A program made the translations under genes and the position numbers. Below the pieces are notes generated by a model. That model searched no databases. It had not been told where the DNA came from and worked only from the letters and a program-made list of their open reading frames with translations. From Spirochaetales bacterium (GTDB lineage Bacteria; Spirochaetota; Spirochaetia; JABEVK01), in contig CANJXC010000002.1 in NCBI GenBank assembly GCA_947478845.1, forward strand, positions 1 through 64,000: 64,000 nucleotides of DNA, read 5' to 3'. Of this stretch, positions 1,633 through 17,260 are shown one piece after another; positions within the stretch are counted from its first letter, which is position 1, and every line of letters starts with the position of its first letter.

Positions 1633-2124
1633 ATGCGAGTTTCCCTCAGCATTTATTTCGTGTTGTTTTTAGCAGTGGCCGGTTCGGCGCTCGATGCCCC
1701 CAAGGGGCCAGCGGTGGTGACGTTTAAGGGTTTGATCACCCAGAAGAACAAGGCCGATACGGCCGTTCTTGATGCAGCGATGCTCGACCGTCTCAAAACC
1801 TACACCGTGAAAACCGTCACCCCGTGGTACACAGGGGCCCAGAAGTTCGAAGGCCCTTCCTTGCAGGACGTGCTCAAGCTAGTTGGCGCTACAGGCAAGA
1901 CCCTGAAAATCGTTGCGCTGAACGACTACGCGATCGAAGTTCCTCTCGAAGATGCCGCGCTCTACAGTCCGATCCTCGCCCGCCGCATCAACGGAGTTGC
2001 CCTTACCCCCCGCGACAAGGGCCCTTTGTTTCTCGTTTATCCCTACGATTCCAAGCCTGAGCTCTCCACTGAGAAGTTCTACGCACGTTCGGCTTGGCAG
2101 ATTGCAGTGATAGAGGTTCTCTAG
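1633..2124 (+). CDS. periplasmic molybdopterin-binding-fold protein, cysteine-free
   Basis: A 163-residue exported protein whose first 20 residues (MRVSLSIYFVLFLAVAGSAL) form a signal peptide. The rest resembles the small stand-alone form of the oxidoreductase molybdopterin-binding domain (sulfite-oxidase fold), with FEGPSLQDVL, LNDYAIEVPL and KGPLFLVYPYD as landmarks. The mature protein has no cysteine, so it cannot provide the thiolate that ligates molybdenum in true sulfite oxidases. It is more likely a binding or sensing protein. It ends 2 bp before the hybrid kinase start, which implies a shared transcript and probably a ligand-binding partner for that kinase. Start chosen at ATG 1633 with AAGGTGG upstream. 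Confidence 0.75.
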   Translation: MRVSLSIYFVLFLAVAGSALDAPKGPAVVTFKGLITQKNKADTAVLDAAMLDRLKTYTVKTVTPWYTGAQKFEGPSLQDVLKLVGATGKTLKIVALNDYAIEVPLEDAALYSPILARRINGVALTPRDKGPLFLVYPYDSKPELSTEKFYARSAWQIAVIEVL

Positions 2125-2126
2125 CT

Positions 2127-3923
2127 TTGAAAAATGTTCTGGGGCTCGGGATTCTTGTCTTGATCCTGAGCTTCGGATCGGTGATCTGGGTCGAAGTTCG
2201 GCAGTTGAGGGCCGTTCAGGCGTATTTGCCCGTCGGGACCGACAATGTTCTGTGGTCGTATGCCCAGTTGAACTTCGAAGCTCTCAAGCTCAACCGAGTC
2301 CTGCTTCTGGCTCTCGATGCGTCAACGATCGATACCGATACTGTGTCCTTGAGGTACAATATTTTTGCCAGCCGCAGCCAGTTGCTGCTGCAAAGCCCCC
2401 AATTAAAACGGATCTGGGAAGACGGGGGCTTTGCACCGGTTGTGGAAAGGCTTGAGGCCTTTTTCCCTGAGGTTGAGGCCGGTTCGGTTAATGGAGAGAT
2501 CAACTGGAATCGCGAGAAAGTGAAACACGCACTGTCGGTTCTTGACCCGCTTTTACCCGACTTAGCCCGCCTGTTGTTGGCTTCGAACATCCGATCCATG
2601 GCGGATGAGGACGCCCGCAACCAGAAACTGGTGGGCATTGCCAACGAGTCCTTGTTCGTGGGTTTTCTCCAGTTGATCCTTGCCATCGCCTTTGCCACCC
2701 TGCTTTACCGTCAATTGCGGGTTGCTCGGGCTGCCAGTCAGGCGAAAGGGCAGTTTTTGGCGAACATGAGCCACGAGATCCGGACCCCTCTGAACGGAGT
2801 GCTTGGCCCGCTTGACCTCGCTCTCGAAGAAACCGACAACTCAAAACGCAGCGACCTGATCCGGATAGCACAGAGATCGGCTCGGCATCTGATGGCCCTG
2901 CTGACCGACATCCTCGACCTCTCCAAACTGGAAAGCGGGCAAATGACCCTTGAGGTAGCCGGGTTTGATCTGAATGTGCTGGTAAGCGACCTCGAACTGA
3001 TGTTCCGCCAAGAGGCCTTGGCACGGGGTTTGGTGTTCCTCGTCGTGCGCGAAGAGGGCTTTCCAGCCAGGCAGTTGGGTGACTCTTTGCGTTTGAGGCA
3101 GATCTTGGCCAACCTTCTGAACAATGCGCTGAAGTTTACAAAGAATGGTAGCGTCACCCTGACCTGCTCGGCCGACCCCGAGAACTTGCGCTTCCTCGTT
3201 GCCGACACCGGGGTAGGAATGAGCCCGGAAACGGTGAAAACCCTCTTCCGCCGCTTTGGCCAGGCCGACGCCTCGGTAACCCGGCGCTACGGAGGCTCCG
3301 GTTTGGGCCTAGAGATCAGCCGTACCTTGGCGCAACTGATGGAAGGTACTATCGAGGTAGAGAGCCTCGAAAATCGCGGGAGTACCTTCACGGTGACCAT
3401 ACCCCGCAAACTGGAATCCACCAGCGAGGCTCCCCTGCAGGCACTTCTCGCGCCCGCACTTGAGGTTGTAGAAGTGCCGGTTGTCCCCTTACCGGTTGCC
3501 ACGCAGACTATTGGCAGCCGGCCGCTGACGGTGCTGGCCGTCGATGACGTGGCGATTAACCTTCTTGTGGTGAGCAGTTTGCTCAAGTTGCTGGGCCACA
3601 GGGTTTTGACAGCTTCGAGCGGCCCCATCGCCCTGGAGGTTATGGCCAAAGAAGGCCCTGCGGTGGACGTGGTTTTCATGGACCTTCATATGCCCGAGTG
3701 GAGCGGTTTGGAAACCACGCAGAAGATTCGCGCCCAAGAGAAGCCGGGCCACCGGATTCCCATTGTGGCGCTCACCGCCGATGTGCTCACGGAGTCTCGC
3801 GAGGCCTGTGTGGTGGCGGGGATGGACGATTTCCTTTCCAAACCGATCCAAAAGCCCGCTCTCGAGCAGCTTTTTCAGCGCCTGAAGCTAGCCTCAGGCG
3901 CCGCGGCAGACCGTAAAACCTAG
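2127..3923 (+). CDS. hybrid sensor histidine kinase/response regulator
   Basis: A membrane-bound hybrid kinase of 598 residues. An N-terminal helix (about 5-25) and a second helix (about 180-200) bracket a periplasmic sensor of roughly 150 residues. A HisKA domain follows with the phosphoacceptor in MSHEIRTPLNG (His216), then a HATPase_c domain (NLLNNALKFT, DTGVGM, YGGSGLGLEIS). A C-terminal receiver domain has VDDVAINLL near its start, Asp519 in FMDLHMPEW and the later KP pair. No output domain is present, so signalling must pass to a separate phosphotransfer protein or regulator. The start is taken as TTG 2127, 2 bp after the preceding stop, with GAGGTT upstream; an in-frame upstream TTG at 2094 lies inside the preceding gene. 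The stop overlaps the convergent pstS-like gene by 4 bp. Confidence 0.9.
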   Translation: MKNVLGLGILVLILSFGSVIWVEVRQLRAVQAYLPVGTDNVLWSYAQLNFEALKLNRVLLLALDASTIDTDTVSLRYNIFASRSQLLLQSPQLKRIWEDGGFAPVVERLEAFFPEVEAGSVNGEINWNREKVKHALSVLDPLLPDLARLLLASNIRSMADEDARNQKLVGIANESLFVGFLQLILAIAFATLLYRQLRVARAASQAKGQFLANMSHEIRTPLNGVLGPLDLALEETDNSKRSDLIRIAQRSARHLMALLTDILDLSKLESGQMTLEVAGFDLNVLVSDLELMFRQEALARGLVFLVVREEGFPARQLGDSLRLRQILANLLNNALKFTKNGSVTLTCSADPENLRFLVADTGVGMSPETVKTLFRRFGQADASVTRRYGGSGLGLEISRTLAQLMEGTIEVESLENRGSTFTVTIPRKLESTSEAPLQALLAPALEVVEVPVVPLPVATQTIGSRPLTVLAVDDVAINLLVVSSLLKLLGHRVLTASSGPIALEVMAKEGPAVDVVFMDLHMPEWSGLETTQKIRAQEKPGHRIPIVALTADVLTESREACVVAGMDDFLSKPIQKPALEQLFQRLKLASGAAADRKT

Positions 3924-4864
3924 AACTTCCCGGCCACTGACTCCGCGAGGAGTTTCTTTTGGGCCGCTAACTCGGCAGCCGGCAACGGGAAGTAACCCAC
4001 GCGCGCCGCGACTTTTGATACATTGTTCAACACAAAGCCCAGATACGCTGCCGACTGGGCCTTGGCGGTCAGGGTTCGTGCGTTGACGTAGGTGTAAAGG
4101 TAGCGGGACAAGCCGTAGGTTCTCGATTCCACGGTGTTGCGGTCGGCCAACATGCCGTTAAACTTCACAGCTCTGGCATCACCGTCTTTGTAATAAGCGT
4201 AGCCGACAAAACCAATGCCATACTTGTCTCCCTGCACGGCTGAGGTGAGCCTGTTGAAGTCTTGAAACCGTTGAACATCGGGTGCCGATTTGAGCATCAC
4301 ACCCTTGTCGTCCCAAAAGTGTTCCTGAAAGAAATCAAAGGTTCCGTGGCTGGTTTCGGGAATATAACGGCGAATCTTTTCAGCGGGCCAACTCGGGTTG
4401 ATATCTGACCACTTTTCCGCCTCGGCGAAGGCTGCTTGCACGGCTTCGTCGTCGAGGTCTTTCACCCAGGTGTTCTGCGAGCTCACTAAGAGGACAATCG
4501 CATCGAGCGCCAGTTTGAACTCAAGCACTTTGCCGCGAGACTCGGCGGCCTTCCGTTCGGCCGGGACAATGGGGCGGCTGGCATTAGCGAAATCAACCTC
4601 GCCAGTGGCGAACCTTTTAAGCCCTGCACCTGTGCCAATGTTGTCTATGGCGAGTTGCCCCGCGAACCCTTCGGCACGGAACTGATCAACCAACATCTGG
4701 GCAATCGGGTAAACGGTGCTCGAACCGCTGGTAAGAACTGAACCCACAACCCGGGAAGGGTTGACGGTGACAAACCCGTTGGAGTCCTTTCCCGCCCAGC
4801 CCCAGTCTTGGGCCCAAGCCACCGTTGCCAAAAAACCCAGCAAGATCGCAAGAGTCATTTTCAT
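3920..4864 (-). CDS. PstS-like phosphate-type substrate-binding protein
   Basis: A 314-residue periplasmic binding protein with a signal peptide (MKMTLAILLGFLATVAWAQ). It carries the PstS-family landmarks GSSTVYPIAQMLVDQF, IDNIGTGAGLKRF and FANASRPI at the ligand cleft. PstS proteins bind inorganic phosphate for the PstCAB importer. No pstC, pstA or pstB is nearby. The gene diverges from a TonB2-type uptake operon that carries a second PstS-like gene, so this protein may hand substrate on from the outer-membrane receptor. ATG 4864 has GGGGGTG upstream. Phosphate specificity is inferred from family only. Confidence 0.85.
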   Translation of the reverse strand: MKMTLAILLGFLATVAWAQDWGWAGKDSNGFVTVNPSRVVGSVLTSGSSTVYPIAQMLVDQFRAEGFAGQLAIDNIGTGAGLKRFATGEVDFANASRPIVPAERKAAESRGKVLEFKLALDAIVLLVSSQNTWVKDLDDEAVQAAFAEAEKWSDINPSWPAEKIRRYIPETSHGTFDFFQEHFWDDKGVMLKSAPDVQRFQDFNRLTSAVQGDKYGIGFVGYAYYKDGDARAVKFNGMLADRNTVESRTYGLSRYLYTYVNARTLTAKAQSAAYLGFVLNNVSKVAARVGYFPLPAAELAAQKKLLAESVAGKF

Positions 4865-4947
4865 CGGAACACCCCCTGTGAAAAACGCCCTATCTTACTG
4901 ACGCCATGGTGCCGCCGCAAGAGGGTTTTGCGAGCGCTAACCAAAAA

Positions 4948-4966
4948 CTCATCAAACCCCGATGAG
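4948..4966. promoter_or_regulatory. 6-bp inverted repeat in the divergent pstS / lipoprotein intergenic region
   Basis: CTCATC (4948-4953) and GATGAG (4961-4966) form a perfect inverted repeat with a 7-base spacer. It lies in the 211-bp region between the divergent pstS-like gene and the lipoprotein gene. It could be an operator or a small hairpin in the leader. No T-run follows, so a terminator is unlikely. Confidence 0.3.
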
Positions 4967-5009
4967 ACCCGCTTGCGTGAGAGAAGGATGAGAACAGCAT
5001 TAAAAAAAA

Positions 5010-5036
5010 CTAACCATTGCCAAACAGAAGGCTAAC
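5010..5036 (+). promoter_or_regulatory. Pho-box-like direct repeats at 11-bp spacing
   Basis: CTAAC (5010-5014), CAAAC (5021-5025) and CTAAC (5032-5036) repeat at exactly 11-bp intervals, 40 bp before the lipoprotein start. PhoB/PhoP-class regulators recognise short direct repeats at 11-bp spacing, and cyanobacterial and Bacillus boxes share a TTAAC/TTAACA-like core. The position between two uptake genes of the phosphate-binding type makes this the best regulatory candidate in the locus, but the three 5-mers are short. Confidence 0.4.
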
Positions 5037-5075
5037 AGTGCGCCGCTAGATTTTGATTGTTCCAAGGAGGAAACA

Positions 5076-6950
5076 ATGAAATTAACCATGGCCACCATTT
5101 TGGTTGCCTTATTGCTCGCTCTGGTCGGCTGTGAACAGCCGACATCCCCGGGCGGCAAAAACACGACGACGACCATTTCTCAGAATCCCGTCAAAGTCGG
5201 TGACGCGATTGTCGGCGGCTTCACGGTGACTCAGGTCGATGTGAACAGCACGGGATACATCGCTACCCGTGATTTTAAGATCACCCACACCGCTGCCGGG
5301 GCGGCTCAGTCCGCCCTTGACGGTTACATCAATGACATCAATACCGGCTACCGAACAACGAAGTCGGCGGTTCAAACTTACAGCAATGGCTCGACCACAA
5401 CTGGAGCTACAAGCAGCGACACGAAGACTTACTGGACGCTTCTACGCCACGAAGGCATTATTTCTGGCACTTGGACTACAGACGTAAGCCTCACCAAAGA
5501 CACCGAGTGGACGCTCGCCGGTCCCGTGTTTATCGGCGGCGATAATACAGGATCCGCAAAACTTTACATTGACGCAGGTACCATCATCAAAGGTACGTCT
5601 TCGTCGATCGCACCCGGCATGCTCGTTGTTAGCCGCGGGTCGCAAATATTCGCCGATGGTTCCAAGTACTACGGCTCGGCCACTGCCAAGAGCTCTCCCG
5701 CCTCAGTTGTCTCAACCGACAATGGCTCCACTGCCGTGTCGGTGGAGGGCACCTACGTTCTACCTATTGTGTTCACTTCCGCCAAAACTCTTGGTTCACG
5801 AGCTCCGGGTGACTGGGGTGGACTTGTGATCAACGGTAACGCCCCTGTCAATGACGGAGATTCCAAGTCGGGTACCGCACCCTACACAAGCACGGGTAAG
5901 GATACCGGAGAAGGCAACACAGGCTACTACGGCGGTAGCGACGCAGACGACAACAGCGGCGTGCTCAAGTACATCCGCAGCGAGTTTGCCGGTGTGCGCT
6001 TCACCGCCGACAACGAGCTCAACGGCATCGCGTTCCAAGGTGTCGGTCGTGGCACCACGGTAGATTACATCCAGGCCCACCTTAGCAACGACGACGGCAT
6101 CGAAATGTTTGGAGGTACTGTCAACATGAAACACGTCGTTTCGACCGGAAACTTGGATGACTACCTCGACTGGACTTCCGGCTGGACCGGCGCAGTTCAG
6201 TTCATGGTCGGACAGCAGTACCCCATTTCTGGGTTCGACAATGGCCTGGAAGGCGATGGCAAGGAAAACGACACCACCGCGACCCCGTACAGCAATCCCT
6301 ACCTGGCAAACTTCACCATGATCGGTGCAGGTACGACTTCGACCGACGGCACCGCGACCCCTACCAAGAATGCTGCTAACTTCCGCCGCGGAACCAAGGT
6401 GACCCTTGTCAACTCGGCCTTTGTCAACTTCTCAAAGTCGTTTCAGGAAACGGACTCTACGGGCAGTGCCTATATATCGGGCACGGCTTCTGGCGTCTCG
6501 TACAGAGGTGTTTTGACGACGATGGCTAGCCCCTCCCTCAGTACGGGTACATTTAACAGCATCAATTATTTCAGCACAGCGATCACCGGTGGAGCCACGG
6601 GAACCGCTTGGTTGAGTGGGACCGGTACAGGAATGTTCCAGGGTACAGTGGGTACGGACATCCTGCTGCCGGCCGGCTACAAAGCAGCTCTGTCGGCTGC
6701 TGTGGCTACGACGATTCCTGACGACTTCACCGCTGGTTCTTCGGGAAACCTTAAAACCAAAACAGTACAGACATACACTTACAGCACTGGCTTTCAGCCG
6801 ACTGGCGCTCAGTCGAGCAGTATTGTCTCGTCTACCGTCAGCAGTTCGGTAAACGGAGCAACTTTGACCTCCACCAGCTACATCGGAGCCGTCGACCCCA
6901 GTGCCAGCACCAACTGGACTACCGGCTGGACCACCACTGCTGCGAACTAA
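5076..6950 (+). CDS. large beta-helix-like lipoprotein of a TonB uptake locus
   Basis: A 624-residue lipoprotein: signal peptide plus lipobox LALVGC (Cys19), then a Ser/Thr/Gly-rich, beta-strand-rich body. Landmarks match a family common in Bacteroidota and some Proteobacteria, often beside TonB receptors: AGTIIKG (about 170), GDWGGLVINGNAPVN (about 247), YGGSDADDNSGVLKYIR (about 285), GRGTTVDYIQAHLSNDDG (about 324) and NLDDYLDWTSGWTGAVQF (about 360). The repeated VxYIxxxF-type strands suggest a right-handed parallel beta-helix. The role is unknown; I infer a surface or periplasmic capture protein for the receptor encoded downstream. AAGGAGG precedes ATG 5076. A strong terminator separates it from the Ton genes, so it is probably made in excess of them. 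Confidence 0.75.
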   Translation: MKLTMATILVALLLALVGCEQPTSPGGKNTTTTISQNPVKVGDAIVGGFTVTQVDVNSTGYIATRDFKITHTAAGAAQSALDGYINDINTGYRTTKSAVQTYSNGSTTTGATSSDTKTYWTLLRHEGIISGTWTTDVSLTKDTEWTLAGPVFIGGDNTGSAKLYIDAGTIIKGTSSSIAPGMLVVSRGSQIFADGSKYYGSATAKSSPASVVSTDNGSTAVSVEGTYVLPIVFTSAKTLGSRAPGDWGGLVINGNAPVNDGDSKSGTAPYTSTGKDTGEGNTGYYGGSDADDNSGVLKYIRSEFAGVRFTADNELNGIAFQGVGRGTTVDYIQAHLSNDDGIEMFGGTVNMKHVVSTGNLDDYLDWTSGWTGAVQFMVGQQYPISGFDNGLEGDGKENDTTATPYSNPYLANFTMIGAGTTSTDGTATPTKNAANFRRGTKVTLVNSAFVNFSKSFQETDSTGSAYISGTASGVSYRGVLTTMASPSLSTGTFNSINYFSTAITGGATGTAWLSGTGTGMFQGTVGTDILLPAGYKAALSAAVATTIPDDFTAGSSGNLKTKTVQTYTYSTGFQPTGAQSSSIVSSTVSSSVNGATLTSTSYIGAVDPSASTNWTTGWTTTAAN

Positions 6951-6976
6951 CCTCTCTGCTCTGATCTGATTTACCC

Positions 6977-7004
6977 AACCGGGGCCTTCGGGCCCCGGTT
7001 TTTT
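6977..7004 (+). terminator. rho-independent terminator after the lipoprotein gene
   Basis: A perfect stem AACCGGGGCC/GGCCCCGGTT closes on a UUCG tetraloop and is followed by a run of T. It lies 27 bp after the lipoprotein stop and directly before the DUF3450 gene. Transcription from the lipoprotein promoter would be reduced here, giving differential expression within the cluster, because no obvious separate promoter fits in the remaining gap. Confidence 0.9.
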
Positions 7005-7015
7005 AAGGAATGCCC

Positions 7016-7789
7016 ATGAAACGCCGTTTCGTTCCTATCCTCGGTCTCTTGACCGCCTTGGCCCTGCCTTTGGGCGCCCAAGCGACTCAGGATGCCTTGA
7101 CCGCCCTGGCCACCCGCATCAGCGAAAAGCGGGCCCAAGTGGAAACCCTCACGTCGGAACTCGACCTGGTCAAGGCTGACTACAACGAACGTCTGCGTTC
7201 CTTGGCTTCCCAACGCGCCGATTTAGAAACCCAAATTAAGCGCGAGCAGTTGCGCGTAGAACAAATTGGCCGCGACATGGCCGAGGTGCGCTCGCGCATC
7301 TCCACCAAAAAATCTGACCTCGGCGATACCCTTCCGCTGGCCAAGCGCGTCCTGGCCAACCTCAAGGCCTCCGTGCAAAAAGGCATTCCCTTCCAAACCG
7401 AAGGGCGTGTGGCAGAAATAGAGTCGCTCGAGCGTTTGGTGCTGGCCGGCAACCTCGACGCCAGTGGCTTTTTGGCGCGCGTGTGGAACCAACTCGAGGC
7501 TGAATACCGCCTGAGCAGCGACAATGGCCTGTACCGCCAGAAAGTGATTCTTGCGGGCCGTGAACAGATGGTGGAGGTGGCGCGCTTGGGGTTGGTGCTC
7601 ATTTACTTCCGCACCCTCGACGACCACTTTGGTATGGCGGTGCCCCGCAATGGCGCCTGGGAGTTCGTGCTCTCGCCAGACTCTCAGCAGATTAAAAAGA
7701 TCACGGCGCTGTTCGATGGCCTTCGGAAGAACCTCAAGGAAGGGTATTTTCCTCTGCCGAACCCCTATTTTCCGCAGGTGAAATCATGA
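7016..7789 (+). CDS. DUF3450-type periplasmic coiled-coil protein
   Basis: A 257-residue exported protein. The signal peptide ends near LGAQA; a coiled coil occupies about residues 25-100 (ISEKRAQVETLTSEL and LETQIKREQLRVEQI). The C-terminal half matches DUF3450 with IPFQTEGRVAEIESL, EQMVEVARLGLVLIYFRTLD and a final PLPNPYF segment. DUF3450 genes open the TonB2-type clusters of Vibrio and Shewanella, just upstream of ttpC; their exact function is not settled. The start is taken as ATG 7016, 6 bases after AAGGA, rather than ATG 7010 which abuts that site. The stop overlaps the next start (ATGA). Confidence 0.85.
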   Translation: MKRRFVPILGLLTALALPLGAQATQDALTALATRISEKRAQVETLTSELDLVKADYNERLRSLASQRADLETQIKREQLRVEQIGRDMAEVRSRISTKKSDLGDTLPLAKRVLANLKASVQKGIPFQTEGRVAEIESLERLVLAGNLDASGFLARVWNQLEAEYRLSSDNGLYRQKVILAGREQMVEVARLGLVLIYFRTLDDHFGMAVPRNGAWEFVLSPDSQQIKKITALFDGLRKNLKEGYFPLPNPYFPQVKS

Positions 7790-9171
7790 AGATGCCGAGG
7801 CTATTTTTCTTGGTGGGCCTGTTGGTGTCGGCGTCTGCTGTGCAAGCCCAAACCGCGGCCGCTGCCGACCCGCTCGTGGCGGCATACCAGCGCGAGTTTG
7901 TGTTCCTCGATAACGAAATCCGCCTCCTGAAGGAGCGTCAGAAGGCCGTGGCCACCGATGGCGACGCCCGCATCGAAGCCTCCAAAAAAGGCCTTGACGA
8001 CCTGGAAGCCCAACTGCTCGCGCTCACCTCCAAGTCGGCCCAAATGACCGAAGACCTCAAAGTGGCCGACTCCGAAAGCCAAAAAACCCAAGACTCCTTT
8101 GACCTGGCTCAAACTATCATTTCCCAGGGGAACACCCGCCTCACCAGCGCCGGTCTGCCTGTTTTCTCGGCTACTGTTCCTGGCAAATCTCCCACACTGA
8201 AGGGCGCGCAGCGGATTCAAGCCGAGCTGGAATACGTGTTCAACTCGTCGGTGACCTTGCTCGACCAGGTTTCCTCCATCCGAAGCGCCCCGGGAGACTT
8301 CTTTCTGGAAGACGGCCGCAAAGTGAGCGGCACCGTTGTGCAATTGGGCCGCATCGCTTCCTTTGGCAGTTCCGCCGAGGGCAGCGGTACCTTGGCCCCC
8401 GCGGGGAAAGACATCCTGCGCCTTGTGAAAACGGAAAACGCCGCTGCGGCTCAGGCCTTGGCCCAAGGAACCCCGACCCCCGAGCTCCCACTGTACCTCT
8501 ACCAAGGCCTCGACAAAAACGTGGAGATCCACGTGGAAAAATCGTGGCAAAAATCGCTGGAAGAAGGCGGGCCCGTGGCGTTTGTCATTGTGGGTGTGGG
8601 CGTTGTCGGGTTCTTGATCGCTGGTTTGCGGGCCCTTTTTCTGTTGGGCCTCGCTAGACGCGACGAAGCTCGCATGAAGAGCATTTTTGATCAGGTGGGG
8701 GCCGATGATTTGGAAGGCGCTGCCACCTCGTCCCAGAGCTTAAAGGGCTCGATGGGCCGCGTGATTCGGGCCGCGATTGCGGGTCTGAAGTCCAACCCCG
8801 AAACCGTAGAAGACGCCATTCAGGCCCAGATTCTCGAGGAGCACCCGAGGCTCGATAGGTTCCGCTCGCTAATCACCGTGTTCGTGGGCGCTGCGCCGAT
8901 GTTGGGTTTGCTCGGTACGGTTTCGGGCATGATCCGGGTGTTCGATATCCTCACCATTTTTGGTACCAGCGACCCGAAGCTGGTCTCTGGCGGTATTTCC
9001 GAAGCGCTGGTAACCACAGCCCTCGGGCTTTCGGTGGCCATTCCACTTCTGCTGGTAGGCAGCCTTCTCACCACTTGGTCCGACCGGGTGACCGGCGAGC
9101 TCGAAGTTCGCGCCCTTCGGCTGGTAGCCCATCGGCACGAGGGTAGGCGCTTGGCCGCGGTGGCCTCATGA
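7786..9171 (+). CDS. TtpC-type MotA/TolQ/ExbB proton channel with periplasmic coiled-coil domain
   Basis: A 461-residue ExbB homologue with an N-terminal extension. A signal peptide (ends AVQAQ) is followed by a periplasmic region of about 240 residues with coiled coil (IRLLKERQKAVATDG). One transmembrane helix (VAFVIVGVGVVGFLIAGL, about 265) comes next. The TolQ/ExbB core holds GAAPMLGLLGTVSGMIRVF and a final helix pair with SEALVTTALGLSVAIP. TtpC is the extra component that distinguishes TonB2 systems from canonical TonB1, and is thought to help energise transport through the thicker or modified periplasmic connection. ATG 7786 overlaps the preceding stop. Confidence 0.85.
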   Translation: MKMPRLFFLVGLLVSASAVQAQTAAAADPLVAAYQREFVFLDNEIRLLKERQKAVATDGDARIEASKKGLDDLEAQLLALTSKSAQMTEDLKVADSESQKTQDSFDLAQTIISQGNTRLTSAGLPVFSATVPGKSPTLKGAQRIQAELEYVFNSSVTLLDQVSSIRSAPGDFFLEDGRKVSGTVVQLGRIASFGSSAEGSGTLAPAGKDILRLVKTENAAAAQALAQGTPTPELPLYLYQGLDKNVEIHVEKSWQKSLEEGGPVAFVIVGVGVVGFLIAGLRALFLLGLARRDEARMKSIFDQVGADDLEGAATSSQSLKGSMGRVIRAAIAGLKSNPETVEDAIQAQILEEHPRLDRFRSLITVFVGAAPMLGLLGTVSGMIRVFDILTIFGTSDPKLVSGGISEALVTTALGLSVAIPLLLVGSLLTTWSDRVTGELEVRALRLVAHRHEGRRLAAVAS

Positions 9172-9782
9172 ACAAGCCTTTCCTCGACCAATGGGCGGAA
9201 ATCCTCGCCAAAGGCGATTGGATCATGACGGCCCTGATGGGAATTGCCGCCACCCTCTGGTTCTGCTTGGCCTATCGTGCTTTGTTGTTGCAGCGTGGAT
9301 CCCGCAAACCGTTGGAAGACTTGTTGGCCAACCCGCCCGCGTTTCTCGGCTCCGAACAGCGCGTGTTTCGTGGCTTCGTGGTTGAGGCTGTTGCGGCGGC
9401 GGGCCAGGTGCTGCGTACGGCCACAACGATGCGTGCGAGCGCTCTAGAGAGCTACCTTCACCCGCTGGTGGCCAAAATGAACGCTTTCCGCTCGCTGGTA
9501 ACCGCCCTAGTAGCGTTGGCACCTATGGCCGGCCTTTTGGGCACCGTTTTGGGCATGATGACCATGTTCAGCTCTATCGGCGATTCCAATTTCTCTTCGC
9601 AGTCGGGCGGTATTACCAACGGCATTGCCCAAGCCCTTTACGCTACGGAAGTCGCCTTGCTCATCGCGGTACCTTGCCTGGTGGTGGGCCAAATCCTCAA
9701 CCGGAGGGAAGACTCCTTGAAAGTGGAGCTTTCGCAGTTGGTTCGCCTTACCTGCGCCCGCCCCCACGAGGTGGCCTCATGA
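9168..9782 (+). CDS. exbB: ExbB proton channel subunit of the TonB2-type system
   Basis: A 204-residue ExbB/TolQ protein of the usual short form with three membrane helices: about 15-38, the APMAGLLGTVLGMMTMF segment near 120, and TEVALLIAVPCLVVGQIL near 165. ExbB pentamers with ExbD use the proton gradient to drive TonB. The start overlaps the ttpC stop (ATGA) and its own stop overlaps the exbD start, so the genes are translationally coupled. Confidence 0.9.
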   Translation: MNKPFLDQWAEILAKGDWIMTALMGIAATLWFCLAYRALLLQRGSRKPLEDLLANPPAFLGSEQRVFRGFVVEAVAAAGQVLRTATTMRASALESYLHPLVAKMNAFRSLVTALVALAPMAGLLGTVLGMMTMFSSIGDSNFSSQSGGITNGIAQALYATEVALLIAVPCLVVGQILNRREDSLKVELSQLVRLTCARPHEVAS

Positions 9783-10177
9783 GGTACCGCCAAAAGTCGG
9801 AAGAAAGCGTCCATATTGACGTCACCAACCTCATCGACGTTGTTATGATTCTGCTCTTTTTCTTTGTCATCTCCACATCGTTCGTCAAAGATATGCAACT
9901 CAACCTCGAGCGTCCTTCGGCCTCGAGTGGTACCGCCGCGAGCACGAAAAGCGTCCGCATCTACATCGATCGTACGGGCAACATTTTCCACGATGAACAA
10001 CCGGTGAAGCTCTGGATGCTTCAGTCGCTGGTTCGTGACTCGTTGGCCACCTCTTCTACGTCGGCCGTGCTCGTGATCGCCGACACGCAGACCAGCACCC
10101 AGGCCTTGGTCGACGTGATCGACCAGTGTCGCCTCGCCGGGGCTGCCGACGTCGGAGTGGCAACGGAAGCCAAATGA
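9779..10177 (+). CDS. exbD: ExbD energiser subunit
   Basis: A 132-residue ExbD/TolR protein. The single transmembrane helix carries the proton-accepting aspartate in VTNLIDVVMILLFFFVIS. The periplasmic domain follows, with the VRIYIDRTGNIF and LVIADTQTSTQALVDVID segments. Start ATG 9779 overlaps the exbB stop; the stop overlaps the tonB start. Confidence 0.9.
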   Translation: MRYRQKSEESVHIDVTNLIDVVMILLFFFVISTSFVKDMQLNLERPSASSGTAASTKSVRIYIDRTGNIFHDEQPVKLWMLQSLVRDSLATSSTSAVLVIADTQTSTQALVDVIDQCRLAGAADVGVATEAK

Positions 10178-10821
10178 TGAGCGCTCTTTGGGGTCGTGGC
10201 TGGCTTCGCTTCTTAATGGCCCTCCTAGCCGGTGCTGTTGGCGTGGCGATGACCCTTCAAGCCGTGGTGGTTCTCAACCTCTTCATTGACCCCCGCGACA
10301 AAGAAACCGGTAAACAAATCGTGAGCTTCAGCCTGCCCACCGTGAAACAGGCCGCACCTCCGCCCACGCCGCCCCCGCCAAAAAGCCGGCCCCGCTCGTC
10401 CGAGAAGTCGCTGGCGCCGCTGCCAGATTTGGGTGGAGCGGGAAGTTCGGCCATCTCTCTCGATGTTCCCGACTATTCGCAAGCTGACCTCGGAACCGCG
10501 GGCAGTGGGCTTTTGGGAAACACCGACAACGTGGCCATGACCGCCGAAACTGTGGATAAACCGCCCGTGGTGAAGCGGGGCAGTCTGGTGTACCCCGAGG
10601 CTGCCAAGCAGAAAGGCCTGACCGGTAGGGTGACGGTTTCCATTTTGATTGGCACCGACGGGCGGGTGCAAAAGTCGAAAATCCTCGACTCCAATCCTGC
10701 CGGAGTCTTTGACGCCGCTGTTTTGACGGCCCTTCCAGGGTGGGTGTTTGCGCCCGCTGAGTACAAAGGTCGCCCTGTGCCCATCTGGGTCACTCTTCCC
10801 TTGGATTTCTCTCCAAAATGA
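10174..10821 (+). CDS. tonB: TonB energy transducer (short TonB2 type)
   Basis: A 215-residue TonB: an N-terminal membrane anchor (about 10-36), a short proline-rich linker (APPPTPPPPKSRPRSS, about 62-77) and a C-terminal TonB domain with YPEAAKQKGLTGRVTVSILI, GRVQKSKILDSNP and a closing PIWVTLPLDF. The linker is short, as in TonB2 proteins that work with TtpC. ATG 10174 overlaps the exbD stop; a second ATG follows at once. The stop overlaps the TPR gene start. Confidence 0.9.
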   Translation: MMSALWGRGWLRFLMALLAGAVGVAMTLQAVVVLNLFIDPRDKETGKQIVSFSLPTVKQAAPPPTPPPPKSRPRSSEKSLAPLPDLGGAGSSAISLDVPDYSQADLGTAGSGLLGNTDNVAMTAETVDKPPVVKRGSLVYPEAAKQKGLTGRVTVSILIGTDGRVQKSKILDSNPAGVFDAAVLTALPGWVFAPAEYKGRPVPIWVTLPLDFSPK

Positions 10822-11984
10822 GTTTGCATGTGCGCGCTAGTTGCATCGCCGTTCTGATTTTAGAGCTTCTCACCGTGTTGCCCCTATTGGCTCAGGCCAC
10901 CTCAAAGGCCAACGACGAGGCCGACCAGTTGGCGGTTGCGGCTGTTTTGGTCCGCGACGGCAACTATGCCCGTGCAGAAACCGTACTGCAGGGTATCGAT
11001 CCGCTGGCCAAGGGAACCGATCAGGTGCGTTATCGCACCCTGAAGGGCCTCGTGAACCTGCGAAGTGCCAAATACGCCGAGGCTGAGTCTGAGTTCCGGT
11101 TGGCCAAATCGCTGGGTCAAAAAGACGCCACTTTAGATGCTTACCTCGCCCAAACGTTGTTTTCGCAGCAAAAATACGCCGAAACCCGAGAGCTGTTGAA
11201 CAAGTTTGCCCGCCTGAGCGCCTTCCCCGACCTCATGGGCATGAAGTGCCAAGCTGAATGGCTCTTAGGCGAAAAATCCGAAGCCATGATCACGCTTGAG
11301 CGCGCGCTGAAGACCTTTCCCAAGCAACTGGCCTTCCTGCAAACGAAAATCAGTTTTCTTCTCGAACTCAACCTGACTCAGGAGGCGGCCGACCAGGCGC
11401 GGGCCTACCTCGATCGCGCCGGAGGCCAGTCCTCCGCGTGGCTCACGGTGGGAGAGTCTTTTCGGCGAGCCCGTCAGCCGGCGCAGGCCGTCAAGGTGCT
11501 CGAAACCGCCCGACTGGCCTTTCCCGATCAGCTCAAGATTCAACTGTCGCTGGCTCAAGCTTACCTCGACCAAGGAATGGTACGAACCGCAGCGGGACTG
11601 CTCGAGCGCGCCGGTGCTTCTGACCCCCAGTACACCGCTCAGGCCGCCGACCTGTTCAAGAAGGCCAAGGATTTCAACCACGCCCTGTACCTCAACGGGC
11701 TGCTCACCGATGTCACCACCAAGACCCGACAACGGTTTTCGATTCTTCTCGACGCCGGACGTTTTGAAGAGGCCCTGGCGTTGGTCCCCCGGCTTGACCA
11801 AATGGGTCTGCTCGAAGAAGGCCGGCTGCGGTACGCCGCCGCCTATACCTCGTACCGGGGGCAAAAATACGACCAGTCCACACGTCTGCTATCGAGCCTT
11901 ACCGACCCCCAGTGGTACGCAGCCTCGGTACAGCTGCGCAAGGCCATCGAGGCGGCAAAGAATGAAACCAACCAGTACTTCTAG
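10818..11984 (+). CDS. TPR-repeat periplasmic protein of the TonB2 cluster
   Basis: A 388-residue exported protein with a signal peptide (ends LLAQA) and tandem tetratricopeptide-like helices over most of its length, for example VRDGNYARAETVLQGID, LRSAKYAEAESEFRLAK and LAQAYLDQGMVRTAAGLLE. A TPR protein ends the homologous TonB2 clusters of Vibrio and Shewanella and probably organises the energising complex or contacts the receptor. The start overlaps the tonB stop (ATGA). Confidence 0.8.
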   Translation: MSLHVRASCIAVLILELLTVLPLLAQATSKANDEADQLAVAAVLVRDGNYARAETVLQGIDPLAKGTDQVRYRTLKGLVNLRSAKYAEAESEFRLAKSLGQKDATLDAYLAQTLFSQQKYAETRELLNKFARLSAFPDLMGMKCQAEWLLGEKSEAMITLERALKTFPKQLAFLQTKISFLLELNLTQEAADQARAYLDRAGGQSSAWLTVGESFRRARQPAQAVKVLETARLAFPDQLKIQLSLAQAYLDQGMVRTAAGLLERAGASDPQYTAQAADLFKKAKDFNHALYLNGLLTDVTTKTRQRFSILLDAGRFEEALALVPRLDQMGLLEEGRLRYAAAYTSYRGQKYDQSTRLLSSLTDPQWYAASVQLRKAIEAAKNETNQYF

Positions 11985-11993
11985 GAGTTTTTG

Positions 11994-14900
11994 ATGAGCG
12001 ACATCCGGCGCCTTTTGTTGCTTGTTCTCATCCTCGGATTGTCTGCTTGGCTGGAAGCCCAACAAAATCTTGCCGGGTTGCGGTTGTATGCCTTTTCGCC
12101 CGAGGGGCTACCGGTGCGCGGCGTCGAGGTAAGGGTAGACGATATTGCCTACACCAGCGACGTGGACGGGGTGCTCGAGCTTCAGGATACCCCGGGGGTG
12201 CATACTTACACGGTCAATTGGCTCGGACGCCGTGCGGGTGTGGTTAAAGTGGCCTTAAGAACAGGTATGACCATAGAAATCATCCTGACGGTACGGCTCG
12301 ATCTTCCCGCCGACGCCATTGCCGAAGAAACGGGGCCGGCCCTTCCTGCTTCGGCTCAAACACCCACCGAGGCCCAACCGGCTGCGCCACCGGGAACTTT
12401 ATCGGGCGTGGTGGTGCACTTCGAAACCCGGAAACCTATCGCGGGGGCGACGATTTTGGTGCGAGGTGTGGCCACCGACGCCCGGACCGACGCCAACGGC
12501 CGCTACACCATCACCATCCCTTCGGGTCCGCACACTGTATCGATTATCCATCCTCAGTTCGCTACGCAAACCAAGGAAGAAGTGGCCGTTAAAGCCGACG
12601 CCGACACGGTGCTTGATTTTGACCTCACACCCTCGGCCTTCCAAATGGAAGCGATGCAGATTGTTTCGACCGAAGACATTCAGGTGCTCGGCGGCGTGGC
12701 CGCGCTCACCGACGAAACCAAGAACTCGGGCGTCGTGCTCAATTTGATGGGTTCGGAACAGATTTCCAAATCGGGAGATTCCGATGCCGCGGGTGCCCTC
12801 AGCCGGGTCACAGGACTTACCGTCGTTGGCGGCAAATATGTGTATGTGCGGGGCATGGGCGAACGCTATTCGGCCAGCTACATGAACGGGGCTCGTCTGC
12901 CGTCCCCCGAGCTCGACAGGAGGGTGGTGCCCCTCGACTTGTTTCCCACCGCCGTCATTGAAAGCCTCGCGATTCAGAAAACCTACAGCCCCGAACTCTA
13001 CGGCGATTTCTCAGGCGGCGCGGTAACGGTGCGCACCATCGGGGTGCCCAACGACCGGTTTCTACGACGCCTGCGGGGCAGTGTGGGGCTATCGCTGGGC
13101 TTCAACCTCGATAACCTTTTCCAAGTAGTCGATTTCCAACAAACTTCGGCCACCGACTGGTTGGGTTTTGACGACGGCACGCGCAAGCTACCGGTGGGTG
13201 TCGACCCCGATGTGGCGATCAACGAGGCCCAGTTAGGTGGGGCGGGGTACACCGCCGACGAAATGACAGCCTTGGGAAAGCTGTTTCCCAACGTTTGGGC
13301 GCCGGTGCAGAAGATGCTGCTTCCCGACGTGGGCGTCACCTTCAGCCTCAAAGACAAAGTTGACCTCGACCGCTTGCATCGGCTTGGCTGGGCTGCTGCC
13401 CTTATGTACAAGCACCAGATGGGCCTTGATGCAGAAATCAACCGGCAATTTGGTGACAATCTAGGCCGCAACCAGTCGCTCGATACCGTGACGACGACCA
13501 GCAGCCAGGAGGTCGACTGGAGTGGCTTGCTCAATGTGGAGTTTGATGCCGAGCGCGAGTTTCACCTTCGTTCTACCACCCTGTGGACACGCATCACCAA
13601 CGACGAGTTTTCGCTCACGCGCGGGTTCCAAAAAGAAATCATCGACGAGAAGATTTACGACGCCTCGTGGGTGGAGCAAAGCCTGTTGAACCAGGCCGTC
13701 GCAGCCGATTGGCAGGGTACGCTCTTTGTGCCGTTGAAGGTACATACCCAGTACAGCCTGTCACTGGCCTCCCGCTACGAGCCAGACCACCGCTTGATTG
13801 GCTTTGGCTCCGACGACAAAGTGGTATTCGATGTAACCAACAAAGCCGGTAACAGTTACCGCTTGTTCTTGAGCGCGCAAGACATTATCCATGATGCTGC
13901 CGCGTCGCTGACGTTGCCTTTTCCGTTTTTTGGTGAAGCCACCGACCAGATTGCGCTCGGTGGTCAGTACATCCGGCAAAACCGCACCGTGACCAATAAT
14001 CGCTACACCTACCAGTTCGGTACGGGCACCGTCACGACGGATGGCTTGGATACCATTCTTTTACCGGATCGCCTTGGAAACGGTGTGCCAGGAAAAATTA
14101 CGTTTTTTGAGAACACAAAACCCTCGGACAACTACAAGGGCACCCACACGGTTTTCGGTGGCTACGCAAACGCCGACCTGCTGTTATTGGGGTGGCTTCG
14201 CTCCAATCTGGGAGTCCGGGTGGAACAGTCGACTCAGGTGATCGATACCTATCAGTTGGGGCAGGTTCTTAAAATTCCCACCCAGGTAATTCTGAGCAAC
14301 TTGACCTACTTGCCGAGCCTTAACTTCACCGTGCCGGTGAACCGTCAAACTCAGGCGCGCTTCGGCGTCAGCCGAACTGTCAACCGCCCCGATTTTATAG
14401 AAATATCGAACACCATCAAGGAAGGGCTTCCAGGCAACGGCCTCTACAAGGGCAACCCGGCCCTGGTTTCGGCTTCCATCTGGAACGCCGACCTGCGTCT
14501 CGAACAATACCTGAACCCTACGGAAAGTTGGTCATTGGGAAGCTTTGCCAAGACCTTCACTAATCCGATTGAGGTCACAGAATCCAACGGAACTTCCGGA
14601 GAGAAAGGCCCCACCAACGTGCCCTCGGCCACAAACTGGGGCCTGGAACTGGAGTGGAATCTCACCGGCGGAGCCATGGCTGATTGGCTTCGCGGTCGTT
14701 CTCTGGCCAAAGAGTCGAAATCGACCGAGGAGTTCTTTTGGGACCGCCAATCAACAGCGTTTTGGGGCGCCTTCTTGAGAGATATTTCAACCACCGGAAA
14801 CCTTTCGTGGATTCAGAGCCAAATCGATTACGGGAGCATGAGCAAGGGCAACAACACCTCGTCGGTACGACCCCTTCAAGGACAGTCGCCGTGGGTCATC

Positions 14901-15215
14901 AACCTAGGCCTGAGCTACAAAAACAGCGCCTCGTGGTCCCAGGTGGTGCGCTCGGACACCAGCGTGAGCCTCAGCTACAATGTGTTTGGGCCCCGCTTAA
15001 AGCGCATCGGCACCGGGACCTTGCTCGATTCCTATGAACAGCCCTTCCATCAACTCGACCTCGTGGTAAAGCACAGGTTTGACGAAACGTGGAGCCTGGA
15101 TTTCAAGGCCAAGAACCTCTTCGACCTTCCGCTAGTTGAGACCGCCGGCGATTTGATCCTCTCCTCACAGCAGAAGGGCCGAACGTTCAGCATCGCAGGA
15201 AAATATGATTTCTAG
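11994..15215 (+). CDS. TonB-dependent outer-membrane receptor with carboxypeptidase-regulatory-like domains
   Basis: A 1073-residue receptor. The signal peptide ends at WLEAQ. Two Ig-like carboxypeptidase-regulatory-type domains follow (about 25-100, and about 130-215 with GTLSGVVVHFETRKPIAGAT). The plug begins near 220 and includes GGKYVYVRGMGERYSASYMN and YGDFSGGAVTVRT. The 22-stranded barrel fills the remainder and ends in an aromatic residue (SIAGKYDF), as outer-membrane proteins do. The final residues of the second Ig-like domain lead to ALTDETKNSGVVLN, a possible TonB-contact region. Position between the Ton machinery and a PstS-like gene suggests import of phosphate or a phosphorylated ligand; that is inference. 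ATG 11994 follows AGGAG. Confidence 0.9.
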   Translation: MSDIRRLLLLVLILGLSAWLEAQQNLAGLRLYAFSPEGLPVRGVEVRVDDIAYTSDVDGVLELQDTPGVHTYTVNWLGRRAGVVKVALRTGMTIEIILTVRLDLPADAIAEETGPALPASAQTPTEAQPAAPPGTLSGVVVHFETRKPIAGATILVRGVATDARTDANGRYTITIPSGPHTVSIIHPQFATQTKEEVAVKADADTVLDFDLTPSAFQMEAMQIVSTEDIQVLGGVAALTDETKNSGVVLNLMGSEQISKSGDSDAAGALSRVTGLTVVGGKYVYVRGMGERYSASYMNGARLPSPELDRRVVPLDLFPTAVIESLAIQKTYSPELYGDFSGGAVTVRTIGVPNDRFLRRLRGSVGLSLGFNLDNLFQVVDFQQTSATDWLGFDDGTRKLPVGVDPDVAINEAQLGGAGYTADEMTALGKLFPNVWAPVQKMLLPDVGVTFSLKDKVDLDRLHRLGWAAALMYKHQMGLDAEINRQFGDNLGRNQSLDTVTTTSSQEVDWSGLLNVEFDAEREFHLRSTTLWTRITNDEFSLTRGFQKEIIDEKIYDASWVEQSLLNQAVAADWQGTLFVPLKVHTQYSLSLASRYEPDHRLIGFGSDDKVVFDVTNKAGNSYRLFLSAQDIIHDAAASLTLPFPFFGEATDQIALGGQYIRQNRTVTNNRYTYQFGTGTVTTDGLDTILLPDRLGNGVPGKITFFENTKPSDNYKGTHTVFGGYANADLLLLGWLRSNLGVRVEQSTQVIDTYQLGQVLKIPTQVILSNLTYLPSLNFTVPVNRQTQARFGVSRTVNRPDFIEISNTIKEGLPGNGLYKGNPALVSASIWNADLRLEQYLNPTESWSLGSFAKTFTNPIEVTESNGTSGEKGPTNVPSATNWGLELEWNLTGGAMADWLRGRSLAKESKSTEEFFWDRQSTAFWGAFLRDISTTGNLSWIQSQIDYGSMSKGNNTSSVRPLQGQSPWVINLGLSYKNSASWSQVVRSDTSVSLSYNVFGPRLKRIGTGTLLDSYEQPFHQLDLVVKHRFDETWSLDFKAKNLFDLPLVETAGDLILSSQQKGRTFSIAGKYDF

Positions 15216-16146
15216 GCGCCTGATGGTTTTTCTCGTTTTGGTGCTGATTTGCGTTGTGCCCAAGCTTGCGGCTATGGGCAATCCGGAAATCTCCTATTTT
15301 ATCAACGGCAAGGCCTATGCCATTGTTGAGGGATCCCTTGCCGAAGAATCCACGGGGAAACCACTTCCTGCGGGTTCTCAAGGGGTCCGGCCACGGTGGT
15401 ATCAGGGCGGTTCGAGCGCGGCAAGGCCCTTGTTGCACGTGGCCGCCGTGCAGTTGCAGCGCGATACCAAGACCAAAGAGGACTACCTTTTTGAAGGCAT
15501 GGGCGGCGCTCAGGCGACAAAAGCGGTGCTCAACGGTCAGCTCGATTGGGCCGTTGTGGGGCGAGACCTCCTTTTATGGGAAAAAGAAGCCGGTTTAAGA
15601 GCCGAAACGGTAGCGTGGGATTCCTTGGTCGTCGTTGTCCCGGCGGATCTTCCGGTGGACGCGGTCTCACTCCGTCGACTGGCAGCCATTTTTGCCGGCC
15701 AAATCACCAATTGGTCAGAACTTGGCGGGCCGGATCTTGCGCTCACCCCGTTCGCGTTTTCTGAACGCTCAGGAAGTGCCGGAGCTCTGCGCGATCTGGT
15801 TCTCGAGCGCATCTATGGTGACGACGGACGGCTCACGAACCGCGCTGTGCTTCTCGACTACGATGCCGAGGTCTACGACCGTGTTGGCGCCCAGCCCGGA
15901 GGAATCGGAGTTGTTCCCCGATCGCTCGACAACGTGGAGGCGCATTTTCCCATCAAGTTCCTCAAAGTTGACACCATTGCGCCGGAACCCGACGAGATCA
16001 GTGCCGGACGCTACCCTGTGGCACGTCCTTTGAACTTTGTCACGTTGGGCGAGCCTTCCGACAAGGCGCGGCTAGTGCTCGATGCGCTCTTGGGTGAGAG
16101 GGTGCAAGGCGCGCTCGAAGGTCTCAAACTGCTGCCAGTGAATTGA
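15205..16146 (+). CDS. second PstS-like periplasmic binding protein
   Basis: A 313-residue binding protein with a signal peptide (ends PKLAAMG). It has the type-2 periplasmic-binding fold of the PstS family: GGAQATKAVLNGQLDWAVVG, an IFAGQITNWSELGGPD motif typical of PstS-like proteins, and SERSGSAGALRDLVLE. The ligand loop differs from the divergent pstS-like gene, so the two may bind different forms or act in series. The start overlaps the receptor stop by 11 bp, placing it firmly in the TonB operon. Confidence 0.8.
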   Translation: MISRRLMVFLVLVLICVVPKLAAMGNPEISYFINGKAYAIVEGSLAEESTGKPLPAGSQGVRPRWYQGGSSAARPLLHVAAVQLQRDTKTKEDYLFEGMGGAQATKAVLNGQLDWAVVGRDLLLWEKEAGLRAETVAWDSLVVVVPADLPVDAVSLRRLAAIFAGQITNWSELGGPDLALTPFAFSERSGSAGALRDLVLERIYGDDGRLTNRAVLLDYDAEVYDRVGAQPGGIGVVPRSLDNVEAHFPIKFLKVDTIAPEPDEISAGRYPVARPLNFVTLGEPSDKARLVLDALLGERVQGALEGLKLLPVN

Positions 16147-16228
16147 CGGCTTTCACGGTATGAGGATCCCAGCAGGCTTGACAGCTCGATCGATTGTTCT
16201 TCAGACTCTCCAAAAGCGGGTGAAAACT

Positions 16229-17260
16229 ATGAAATTAAAGACATCAGGGATAGGTTTGTTGCTCACCGTCATCGTGTTCGGTGCAACGTCGTGTGCCACC
16301 TACATTCCCGTCCAAGTGACTAAGCCAGCCGAAATCAATATGACCGACGCTCGTAAGATTGCGGTGCTGGATTTCGATTACCCGCGGCAAGTAGCGACAA
16401 CCGATCTTCTGGAAGTGATTTTTCTCTCCCTTCTGGGCGACAGCAACGAAAACAACAACACTCCCCAAGCGAGAATTGCTGATTACACAACCCAGAGCTT
16501 GCTGGAGGCCTTGAAAAACACCGGGTATTTCGAGTTGGTAGATTCCCGAGGCGTTGTCAGGGCACTGGCCGGTGCTGACAAATCGAGCATCAATGCTGTG
16601 CAAGTGGGGCAAAAAGCGGGGGTCAAAGCGATAGTCGTCGGTAAAATTGGCGAAATGGTCCGCAGAGAAGTTTTAAAAACTCGGGTAGAGCAAATAAAAG
16701 ACACGAATACAGGGGTTATGATCAAAGTTGATGTGATGTATCGGGTCATCACGGATGCGTTAGCTCTGAGTTACCGAGTTCTTGATACCAGCAATGGCGT
16801 GATTTTGGCCACCAAGACCTTTTCCGACACCAGAACCCAAGAGATTGTTGATAATGGAAAGACCGAACCCCTTGCTTTTGGAGATCAGTGCAAGGACATG
16901 GTGAACGGCTGGATTCCCCAGATTACCCGCCAATTGGCTCCCTATACGGTTACAGAATACCGGACACTCATGAACGATAAGGCCAAAGACCCCGACATGA
17001 AAGTCGCTGATGAATTGGTAAAGAAGTCCTCGTACGCCAAGGCACTTGCCCTGTTTCTTCAGGTTTGGGAATCGACGGGAAACCCGGCGGCCGGCGTCAA
17101 TGCGGCGATCATGTACGATGTTACCGGCGATATGGATCAAGCCCTGAGCCTTCTTCAGACGGTAATCGATAAATCCCCAAACCCAACCGCTATTGAAGAA
17201 ATGGATCGATTGAAACGAGCCAAGGCCGATGCCCAGCGTTTAGCCGAGCAAACCAAATAA
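16229..17260 (+). CDS. CsgG-like lipoprotein with C-terminal TPR-like region
   Basis: A 343-residue lipoprotein: basic start MKLKTSGIG, lipobox GATSC, then CATYIPVQVTKPAEIN. The N-terminal domain has RKIAVLDFDYPRQV and QSLLEALKNTGYFELVDSRG, the nucleotide-lacking CsgG/curli-export-type fold. GQKAGVKAIVVGKIG is its second landmark. The last 100 residues look like a TPR pair (ADELVKKSSYAKALALFLQV). Function unknown; outer-membrane assembly or cell-envelope stress are possible roles. A TTGACA hexamer at 16178-16183 may be its -35 box, though no good -10 follows. Start chosen at ATG 16229 because the upstream 23 residues are not signal-like. Confidence 0.65.
   Translation: MKLKTSGIGLLLTVIVFGATSCATYIPVQVTKPAEINMTDARKIAVLDFDYPRQVATTDLLEVIFLSLLGDSNENNNTPQARIADYTTQSLLEALKNTGYFELVDSRGVVRALAGADKSSINAVQVGQKAGVKAIVVGKIGEMVRREVLKTRVEQIKDTNTGVMIKVDVMYRVITDALALSYRVLDTSNGVILATKTFSDTRTQEIVDNGKTEPLAFGDQCKDMVNGWIPQITRQLAPYTVTEYRTLMNDKAKDPDMKVADELVKKSSYAKALALFLQVWESTGNPAAGVNAAIMYDVTGDMDQALSLLQTVIDKSPNPTAIEEMDRLKRAKADAQRLAEQTK

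Follow-up and report, generated by a model that had tools for sequence, protein, structure and literature searches.

The window, that is, the whole stretch of 64,000 nucleotides analysed here, encodes on its plus strand, from 5076 to 16146, a beta-helix lipoprotein, DUF3450, TtpC, ExbB, ExbD, TonB, a TPR protein, a TonB-dependent receptor and a PstS-like binding protein (PstSB), in this order. The genes from 7786 to 10821 are linked by stop/start overlaps, a gap of 6 bases separates the TPR gene from the receptor gene, and the receptor and PstSB genes overlap by about 11 bases, so the stretch reads as a single tight operon. PstSA, a predicted periplasmic phosphate-binding protein (3920–4864, minus strand; PF12849, 1.8e-25), is encoded divergently, and the region between its gene and that of the lipoprotein (4865–5075) serves as a promoter region common to both. 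Such an order is far beyond what chance would give: L204, from a spirochaete of a different family, has it complete with PstSB, and several further lineages have it lacking PstSB. A preliminary description had proposed a TonB2-type uptake cluster with two PstS-like proteins, and every gene it named lies where it had put it. A hybrid histidine kinase gene lies at 2094–3923. A DUF6340-like gene (16160–17260) has the same strand as the operon, but was excluded from it because no homologue was found beside the cassettes of relatives.

The energiser comprises a DUF3450 (TtpB-like) periplasmic coiled-coil protein (7010–7789; PF11932, 2.7e-28), a TtpC-like protein with a periplasmic N-terminal part and a MotA/TolQ/ExbB channel domain at residues 323–440 (7786–9171; PF01618, 1.8e-28), ExbB (9168–9782; PF01618, 1.1e-20), ExbD (9779–10177; PF02472, 1.6e-25), TonB (10171–10821; PF03544, 1.6e-19) and a TtpD-like TPR protein (10818–11984), which matches Pfam TPR families and occupies the position of TtpD2 in TonB2 operons. 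The six kinds of gene and their order are identical to the TtpB2-TtpC2-ExbB2-ExbD2-TonB2-TtpD2 arrangement of Vibrio (PMC6957404), as the preliminary description had recognised. The Vibrio system differs in that it serves siderophore uptake and contains neither an ElpS-type lipoprotein nor a PstS. In the gene trees, the sets of Alteromonadales (the only TonB2-type sets compared) form a separate and distant group. Genome-wide, this TonB is the sole TonB_C match and the Plug domain of the receptor the sole Plug match.

The receptor (11991–15215) carries a CarboxypepD_reg domain (PF13620, 5.6e-17; PF13715) and a Plug domain (PF07715, 2.5e-9); its N-terminal domains, at first taken to be Ig-like, are thus of the CarboxypepD_reg type. 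It scores 168 bits against TIGR01782 (TonB-Xanth-Caul), under the cut-off of 310. The lipoprotein (5076–6950) had been listed as an additional gene of the locus; it is present, but not in a side role, as in almost all of the roughly 100 relatives it adjoins the receptor, whose constant partner it is. In the family alignment the lipobox Cys19 is nearly invariant and 32 columns are invariant, and the AlphaFold model shows a beta-helix core at residues 125–460 with pLDDT mostly above 90. A search for a solved structure of the lipoprotein found none, and the best Foldseek matches are beta-helices, none below an E-value of 6e-3. With its lipoprotein signal and conserved Cys, its pectin-lyase-like beta-helix core and its co-encoded receptor, the protein fits the ElpS/FI–FIII family, in which the stand-in homologues L096, L102 and L136 represented CC0170 and Fjoh_3856. 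L096 and L102 show the Caulobacter lipoprotein-receptor-gsp order, and in L136 (Flavobacterium) the lipoprotein homologue lies beside PhoBR-like genes.

Previous work showed that ElpS of Caulobacter crescentus is a surface lipoprotein produced on phosphate starvation and encoded beside the TonB-dependent receptor CC0171 (PMC2996285). The window pair resembles it in this arrangement, and alphaproteobacterial loci with the lipoprotein-receptor-T2SS order, such as L096, score as its homologues. The Caulobacter locus differs in having no TonB/ExbBD/Ttp genes of its own and no PstS in the operon; T2SS genes follow instead, and ElpS is released in a T2SS-dependent manner, probably via a secreted protease (PMC2996285). 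In Flavobacterium johnsoniae, pectin-lyase-like lipoproteins likewise lie beside CarboxypepD_reg receptors (PUSIII/PUSIV): FI and FII adjoin receptors induced at low Pi, the FI/FII/FIII systems are strongly induced by Pi depletion, and one of them adjoins phoBR (PMC8115612). These are, however, systems of Bacteroidota for which no dedicated TonB2-type energiser is reported, with a phosphodiesterase in PUSIII and no PstS. The SusCD and PusCD pairs also combine a TonB-dependent receptor with a lipoprotein partner, whereas no SusD-family match was found among the proteins of the window cluster, in which the lipoprotein is a beta-helix.

The two binding proteins differ in how closely they follow PstS. 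PstSA shares 50% identity with its paralogue, the PstS from the genome's pstSCAB operon on contig C20, and retains the ligand loops GSST, GTGAG, ASR and SHGT; against TIGR02136 (cut-off 206.6) it scores 188 bits and the operon PstS itself 170. PstSB (15205–16146, plus strand; PF12849, 5e-17) reaches 73 bits, and relative to L204, L206 and 4n13 two of its loops are altered (GSG to GGAQA, and SR to GR, in VGR); for both reasons we call it PstS-like rather than PstS. Its scaffold and SGS loop are retained, its best solved relatives are phosphate-binding proteins (4n13 foremost, 2.6e-19), and in both L204 and L206 an orthologue comes after the receptor. The pstCAB genes were said to be missing, which is true of the locus but not of the genome, where pstS-pstC-pstA-pstB, split over contigs C20 and C13, is followed by phoU-phoB-phoR. 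The PstS genes of the window differ from those of a canonical PstSCAB transporter in lacking an adjacent permease or ATPase, the inner-membrane part being encoded elsewhere.

The surroundings of related loci also point to phosphate. PHO transport genes lie within about 10 kb of 11 of 100 related loci, compared with 0 of 40 controls (Fisher p 0.02); the other 89 show no pst gene in the visible stretch. In the closest relative, a spirochaete (L206), the receptor and PstSB are followed by pstC and pstA, the products of which score 274.8 and 251 bits, both above the cut-offs of the curated models. The cassette is joined to pstSCAB-phoU and phoB in L153 (genome G505); in L088, from a gammaproteobacterial MAG, it has Porin_O_P-phoU-pstB-pstA-pstC as neighbours, and in L059 it occurs with PhoR/PhoB-like genes. 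Related clusters of Alteromonadales (L074, L099) run from phoB-phoR-pstS through lipoprotein-receptor-DUF3450 to TonB, and in Kordiimonas (L096) pstSCAB-phoU precedes lipoprotein-receptor-gspD-gspE. The earlier proposal of a dedicated, phosphate-linked outer-membrane system is thus supported by curated-model matches in the neighbourhoods of L153, L088 and L206. At the locus itself, two Pho-box-like repeats with 11-bp phasing lie on the minus strand of the shared promoter region (4977–4994 and 5021–5038). By an ad hoc scoring both rank in the best 0.02% of window sites, and as a sign of Pho regulation they are suggestive only. A sigma-70 promoter scan gave no excess over shuffles.

Taken together, the gene content and its conservation make it rather likely that the operon encodes an outer-membrane importer that is self-contained, draws its energy from TonB and takes up phosphate or a small compound bearing phosphate, ligand and direction of flow being inferred. 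The ElpS-type lipoprotein would present the ligand to the receptor at the cell surface, and TonB, powered by the proton channel of ExbB and ExbD and assisted by TtpC, DUF3450 and the TPR protein, would open the receptor plug. Once the ligand had entered the periplasm, PstSB and/or PstSA could bind phosphate and hand it on to the PstC-PstA-PstB encoded outside the locus. What finally arrives at the PstS proteins is, with good probability, inorganic phosphate. For the compound that crosses the receptor, Pi itself has about an even chance and is slightly likelier than an ester. We propose more tentatively a trans-envelope pump, in which TonB would move Pi via the ElpS-gated receptor and the PstS of the operon would pass it directly to PstCAB; if so, the outer- and inner-membrane steps of phosphate uptake would be one coupled system. 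The loss from PstSB of phosphate-loop parts that its orthologues keep counts against the importer, as do the weakness of the Pho-box signal and the 89 of 100 relatives with no pst gene in view.

In the textbook view, phosphate passes the outer membrane passively via porins; since these can already admit it, one may also ask why TonB should be required. The receptor might instead import an organophosphate, such as a nucleotide, a phytate-like ester, a phosphorylated glycan or a teichoic fragment, from which phosphate would be cleaved in the periplasm before binding to PstS. We regard this as a serious possibility, though one short of an even chance. The authors of the Flavobacterium study proposed organic phosphorus for the low-Pi receptors, some of which are accompanied by phosphatases (PMC8115612), and the beta-helix bears a general resemblance to polysaccharide-active folds. 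The genome encodes one PhoD-type phosphatase, so an ester route is possible, but no PhoA-family phosphatase was found in it, and none of any kind was recognised in the operon or beside it in L204, L206 and L207. The PstS-type gene and pstCA directly behind the receptor of L206 also argue against the organophosphate reading.

Another possibility would be that the operon is real but that PstSB has drifted, in the host lineage, to another oxyanion or ligand. The two altered loops raise this prospect, which we nevertheless consider unlikely given the retained scaffold and SGS loop, and given that PstSA keeps all its loops and shares its promoter region with the operon. A role in sensing, in which receptor and lipoprotein would detect external phosphate and then signal, was considered for CC0171 (PMC2996285), and the hybrid histidine kinase gene lies nearby. 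However, deletion of cc0171 did not abolish ElpS production (PMC2996285), the locus has no sigma/anti-sigma gene, and the operon ends in a binding protein, followed in L206 by permease genes, which makes a sensor very improbable. Slightly less probable still is an iron or siderophore system that lies beside PstS genes by chance: it would explain the match of the six energiser genes to the Vibrio iron operon, but the receptor belongs to the ElpS-partner group, the pst/pho neighbourhood is repeated across related loci, and the operon contains no iron gene.

To our knowledge, receptors that are induced by starvation and paired with ElpS-type lipoproteins have been on record since 2010 with no ligand or route assigned to them, and phrase searches of the literature collection covered gave no match for a phosphate system dependent on TonB or for a TonB system of spirochaetes. 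In the present genome, which has just one TonB, a single operon holds the receptor and its lipoprotein, an energiser of their own and a PstS-type protein. Together with the pstC-pstA of L206, it offers a testable ligand and direction of flow for the question of TonB-driven phosphate uptake, and the genome, free of redundant TonB systems, provides a clean genetic setting.

The host is a spirochaete, as its genome has three FlaA (PF04620) matches, compared with 0 of 14 controls. The TonB set had been thought unexpected in such a host, but Plug domains occur in 111 of 248 genomes of its class; TonB receptors are common there, and the idea that TonB is foreign to spirochaetes was ruled out. The cassette type itself has a sporadic distribution, occurring in 4 of 297 class genomes. 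The receptor tree was rebuilt to include three class relatives from a deeper class search, which superseded the solitary position of the window receptor in the first tree, built with no class relatives. In the rebuilt tree the window receptor stands apart from the other spirochaete ElpS-type receptors (AU p ~1e-47), and because of this placement the acquisition of the whole cassette by the host lineage would fit. The acquisition suggested in the preliminary description is thus borne out in part, by the sporadic distribution and the receptor tree; the GC content of the cluster (0.576, against 0.579 for the window) gives no signal of transfer. A placement of the genes in unrelated lineages, which would have spoken against the earlier interpretation, was not seen: six of the seven gene trees have a supported branch that puts the spirochaete copies together on the same side, that of ExbD being less resolved.

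All ten genes that the preliminary description assigned to a TonB2-type cluster are present at the positions claimed. The genes at 5076-16146 lie on the same strand and are likely, to judge from the sequence, to form one transcript, since stop/start overlaps link them from 7786 to 10821, only 6 bases separate the TPR and receptor genes, and the receptor gene overlaps that of the terminal PstS-like protein (PstSB, 15205-16146, + strand) by ~11 bases. The gene of the second PstS-like protein, PstSA (3920-4864, - strand), is divergently oriented across a 211-base gap (4865-5075), where Pho-box-like repeats are no more than suggestive. Adjoining PstSA, the stretch 1573-3923 encodes a hybrid histidine kinase, whose gene overlaps that of a protein with a molybdopterin-binding oxidoreductase domain. 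Directly downstream of the operon and on the same strand, 16160-17260 encodes a TPR lipoprotein with weak DUF6340 similarity, of which no homologue was seen adjoining the cassettes of relatives.

The host is a spirochaete, given three FlaA matches (PF04620) in its genome and none in 14 control genomes. Its only TonB_C domain and its only Plug domain both lie inside the cluster, so that the energiser (DUF3450-TtpC-ExbB-ExbD-TonB-TPR) very probably works for this one receptor only. The reported lack of pstCAB holds at the locus but not genome-wide: contig C20 ends with pstS-pstC-pstA-pstB, and contig C13 starts with the end of pstB, followed by phoU, a PhoB-like gene and a PhoR-like gene. While the ElpS-type lipoprotein-receptor pair, the TonB2-type energiser and PstS are known parts, we found no description in the literature searched of all three combined in a single operon as the genome's sole such system, nor of such a combination joined to pstCA, as in a relative.

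The beta-helix lipoprotein is the receptor's key partner. Their genes are adjacent in 19 of 20 receptor relatives from other classes of the phylum, the exception (L019) sitting on a 4 kb contig, and in most of the 80 loci retrieved with the lipoprotein's own profile, which span Pseudomonadota, Bacteroidota, Poribacteria, Gemmatimonadota, Acidobacteriota and others. In the family alignment the lipobox is conserved and 32 columns are invariant. AlphaFold confidently predicts a beta-helix core at residues 125-460; Foldseek returned generic beta-helices only (best E 7e-3), and no solved structure is related by sequence. In Caulobacter, the published order is elpS (cc0170), cc0171 and type II secretion genes; ElpS is a surface lipoprotein produced under phosphate starvation, and its authors noted that cc0171 homologues co-occur with it (PMC2996285). 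Alphaproteobacterial loci such as L096 have this gene order too, gspD and gspE coming after lipoprotein and receptor. In Flavobacterium johnsoniae, the related lipoproteins FI and FII likewise adjoin receptors, which are induced by Pi depletion only (PMC8115612).

Phosphate genes were sought around related loci. Window-type clusters, defined as lipoprotein plus DUF3450-TtpC-ExbB-ExbD-TonB-TPR-receptor, occur at L059, L060, L088, L090, L100 and L123, and the DUF3450-to-receptor cassette also at L153 and L154, with the lipoprotein at L154. The L153 cassette comes after pstS-C-A-B-phoU and PhoB above cut-off, that of L088 adjoins Porin_O_P, phoU, pstB, pstA and pstC, and L059 has PhoB-like and PhoR-like genes. 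In Alteromonas (L074; L099 is similar), PhoB, PhoR and PstS above cut-offs are followed by an oxygenase, the lipoprotein and the receptor, and a more distant DUF3450-to-TonB set is present. Within the host's class, L204 has the exact window gene order, including PstSB, and L206 runs from TtpC to the receptor, then PstSB, PstC (274.8 bits, cut-off 196.45) and PstA (251 bits, cut-off 193.45). PstS, PstC, PstA or PhoU, the only families counted, lie within about 10 kb in 11/100 loci and 0/40 control stretches (Fisher p 0.02), a comparison in which two query proteins came from test loci and the controls were mostly contig starts, some short.

PstSA is 50% identical to the PstS of the genome's own pstSCAB set and retains its loops. 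Among solved structures, PstSB is closest to 4n13 (2.6e-19), the binding protein of a phosphate ABC transporter; the loops of the window's PstSB read GGAQA and VGR, and this protein may have drifted. The L204 and L206 orthologues retain the GSG/GST and SR loops, so that the operon's phosphate reading does not depend solely on the window's PstSB. In the best-supported order, which we infer beyond the gene content itself, the lipoprotein would capture the ligand at the cell surface, TonB-driven passage through the receptor would follow, PstSB and/or PstSA would take up the ligand in the periplasm, and delivery to PstCAB would come last. Either Pi or a phosphate ester may cross the receptor: Pi itself would be consistent with an operon in which no phosphatase was recognised and a genome from which PhoA is absent, and a phosphate ester with the one PhoD-type protein that the genome encodes.

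The receptor type occurs in 4 of 297 class genomes, spread over three families, and is absent from the two other searched genomes of the genus. In the receptor tree, the four members form a clade (support 100) nested in a group (100) with Pseudomonadota, two unplaced MAGs and one Myxococcota MAG; the remaining 20 spirochaete ElpS-receptors fall apart from them, with Bacteroidota, and monophyly of all spirochaete receptors is rejected (AU p 1.1e-47). Rather than scattering the genes among unrelated lineages, the DUF3450, TtpC, ExbB, TonB, TPR and receptor trees each contain a supported branch (99-100) with the spirochaete copies on the same side; the ExbD grouping is less resolved. The proposed acquisition gains some support from the sporadic distribution and the receptor's separate position; GC content bears no trace of recent transfer. 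The simplest reading of these trees is that the whole cassette was transferred, probably into some Spirochaetia, and diverged afterwards.

A family of small lipoproteins (about 165-210 aa) is encoded close to the ElpS-type lipoprotein and receptor, or directly adjoining them, at L040-L047, L045-L058, L065-L078, L103 and L130, in spirochaetes of other classes, Poribacteria, Gemmatimonadota and Latescibacterota. By profile its two sub-groups belong to a single family, and two members tested had no Pfam match; absent from the window, it is likely a third component. In Alteromonadales, the ElpS-type protein (L074 8462-12529, L076 9686-13783) joins three tandem beta-helix domains of the ElpS-type family in one chain, and the Alteromonas oxygenase gene (2OG-Fe(II), PF13640; L074 7455-8252) lies between pstS and the ElpS-type gene. 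One genome (G505:C1) carries both L153 and L154, two whole DUF3450-to-receptor cassettes with equal ORF lengths and identical match scores, one adjoining pstSCAB-phoU and the other an ElpS-type gene.
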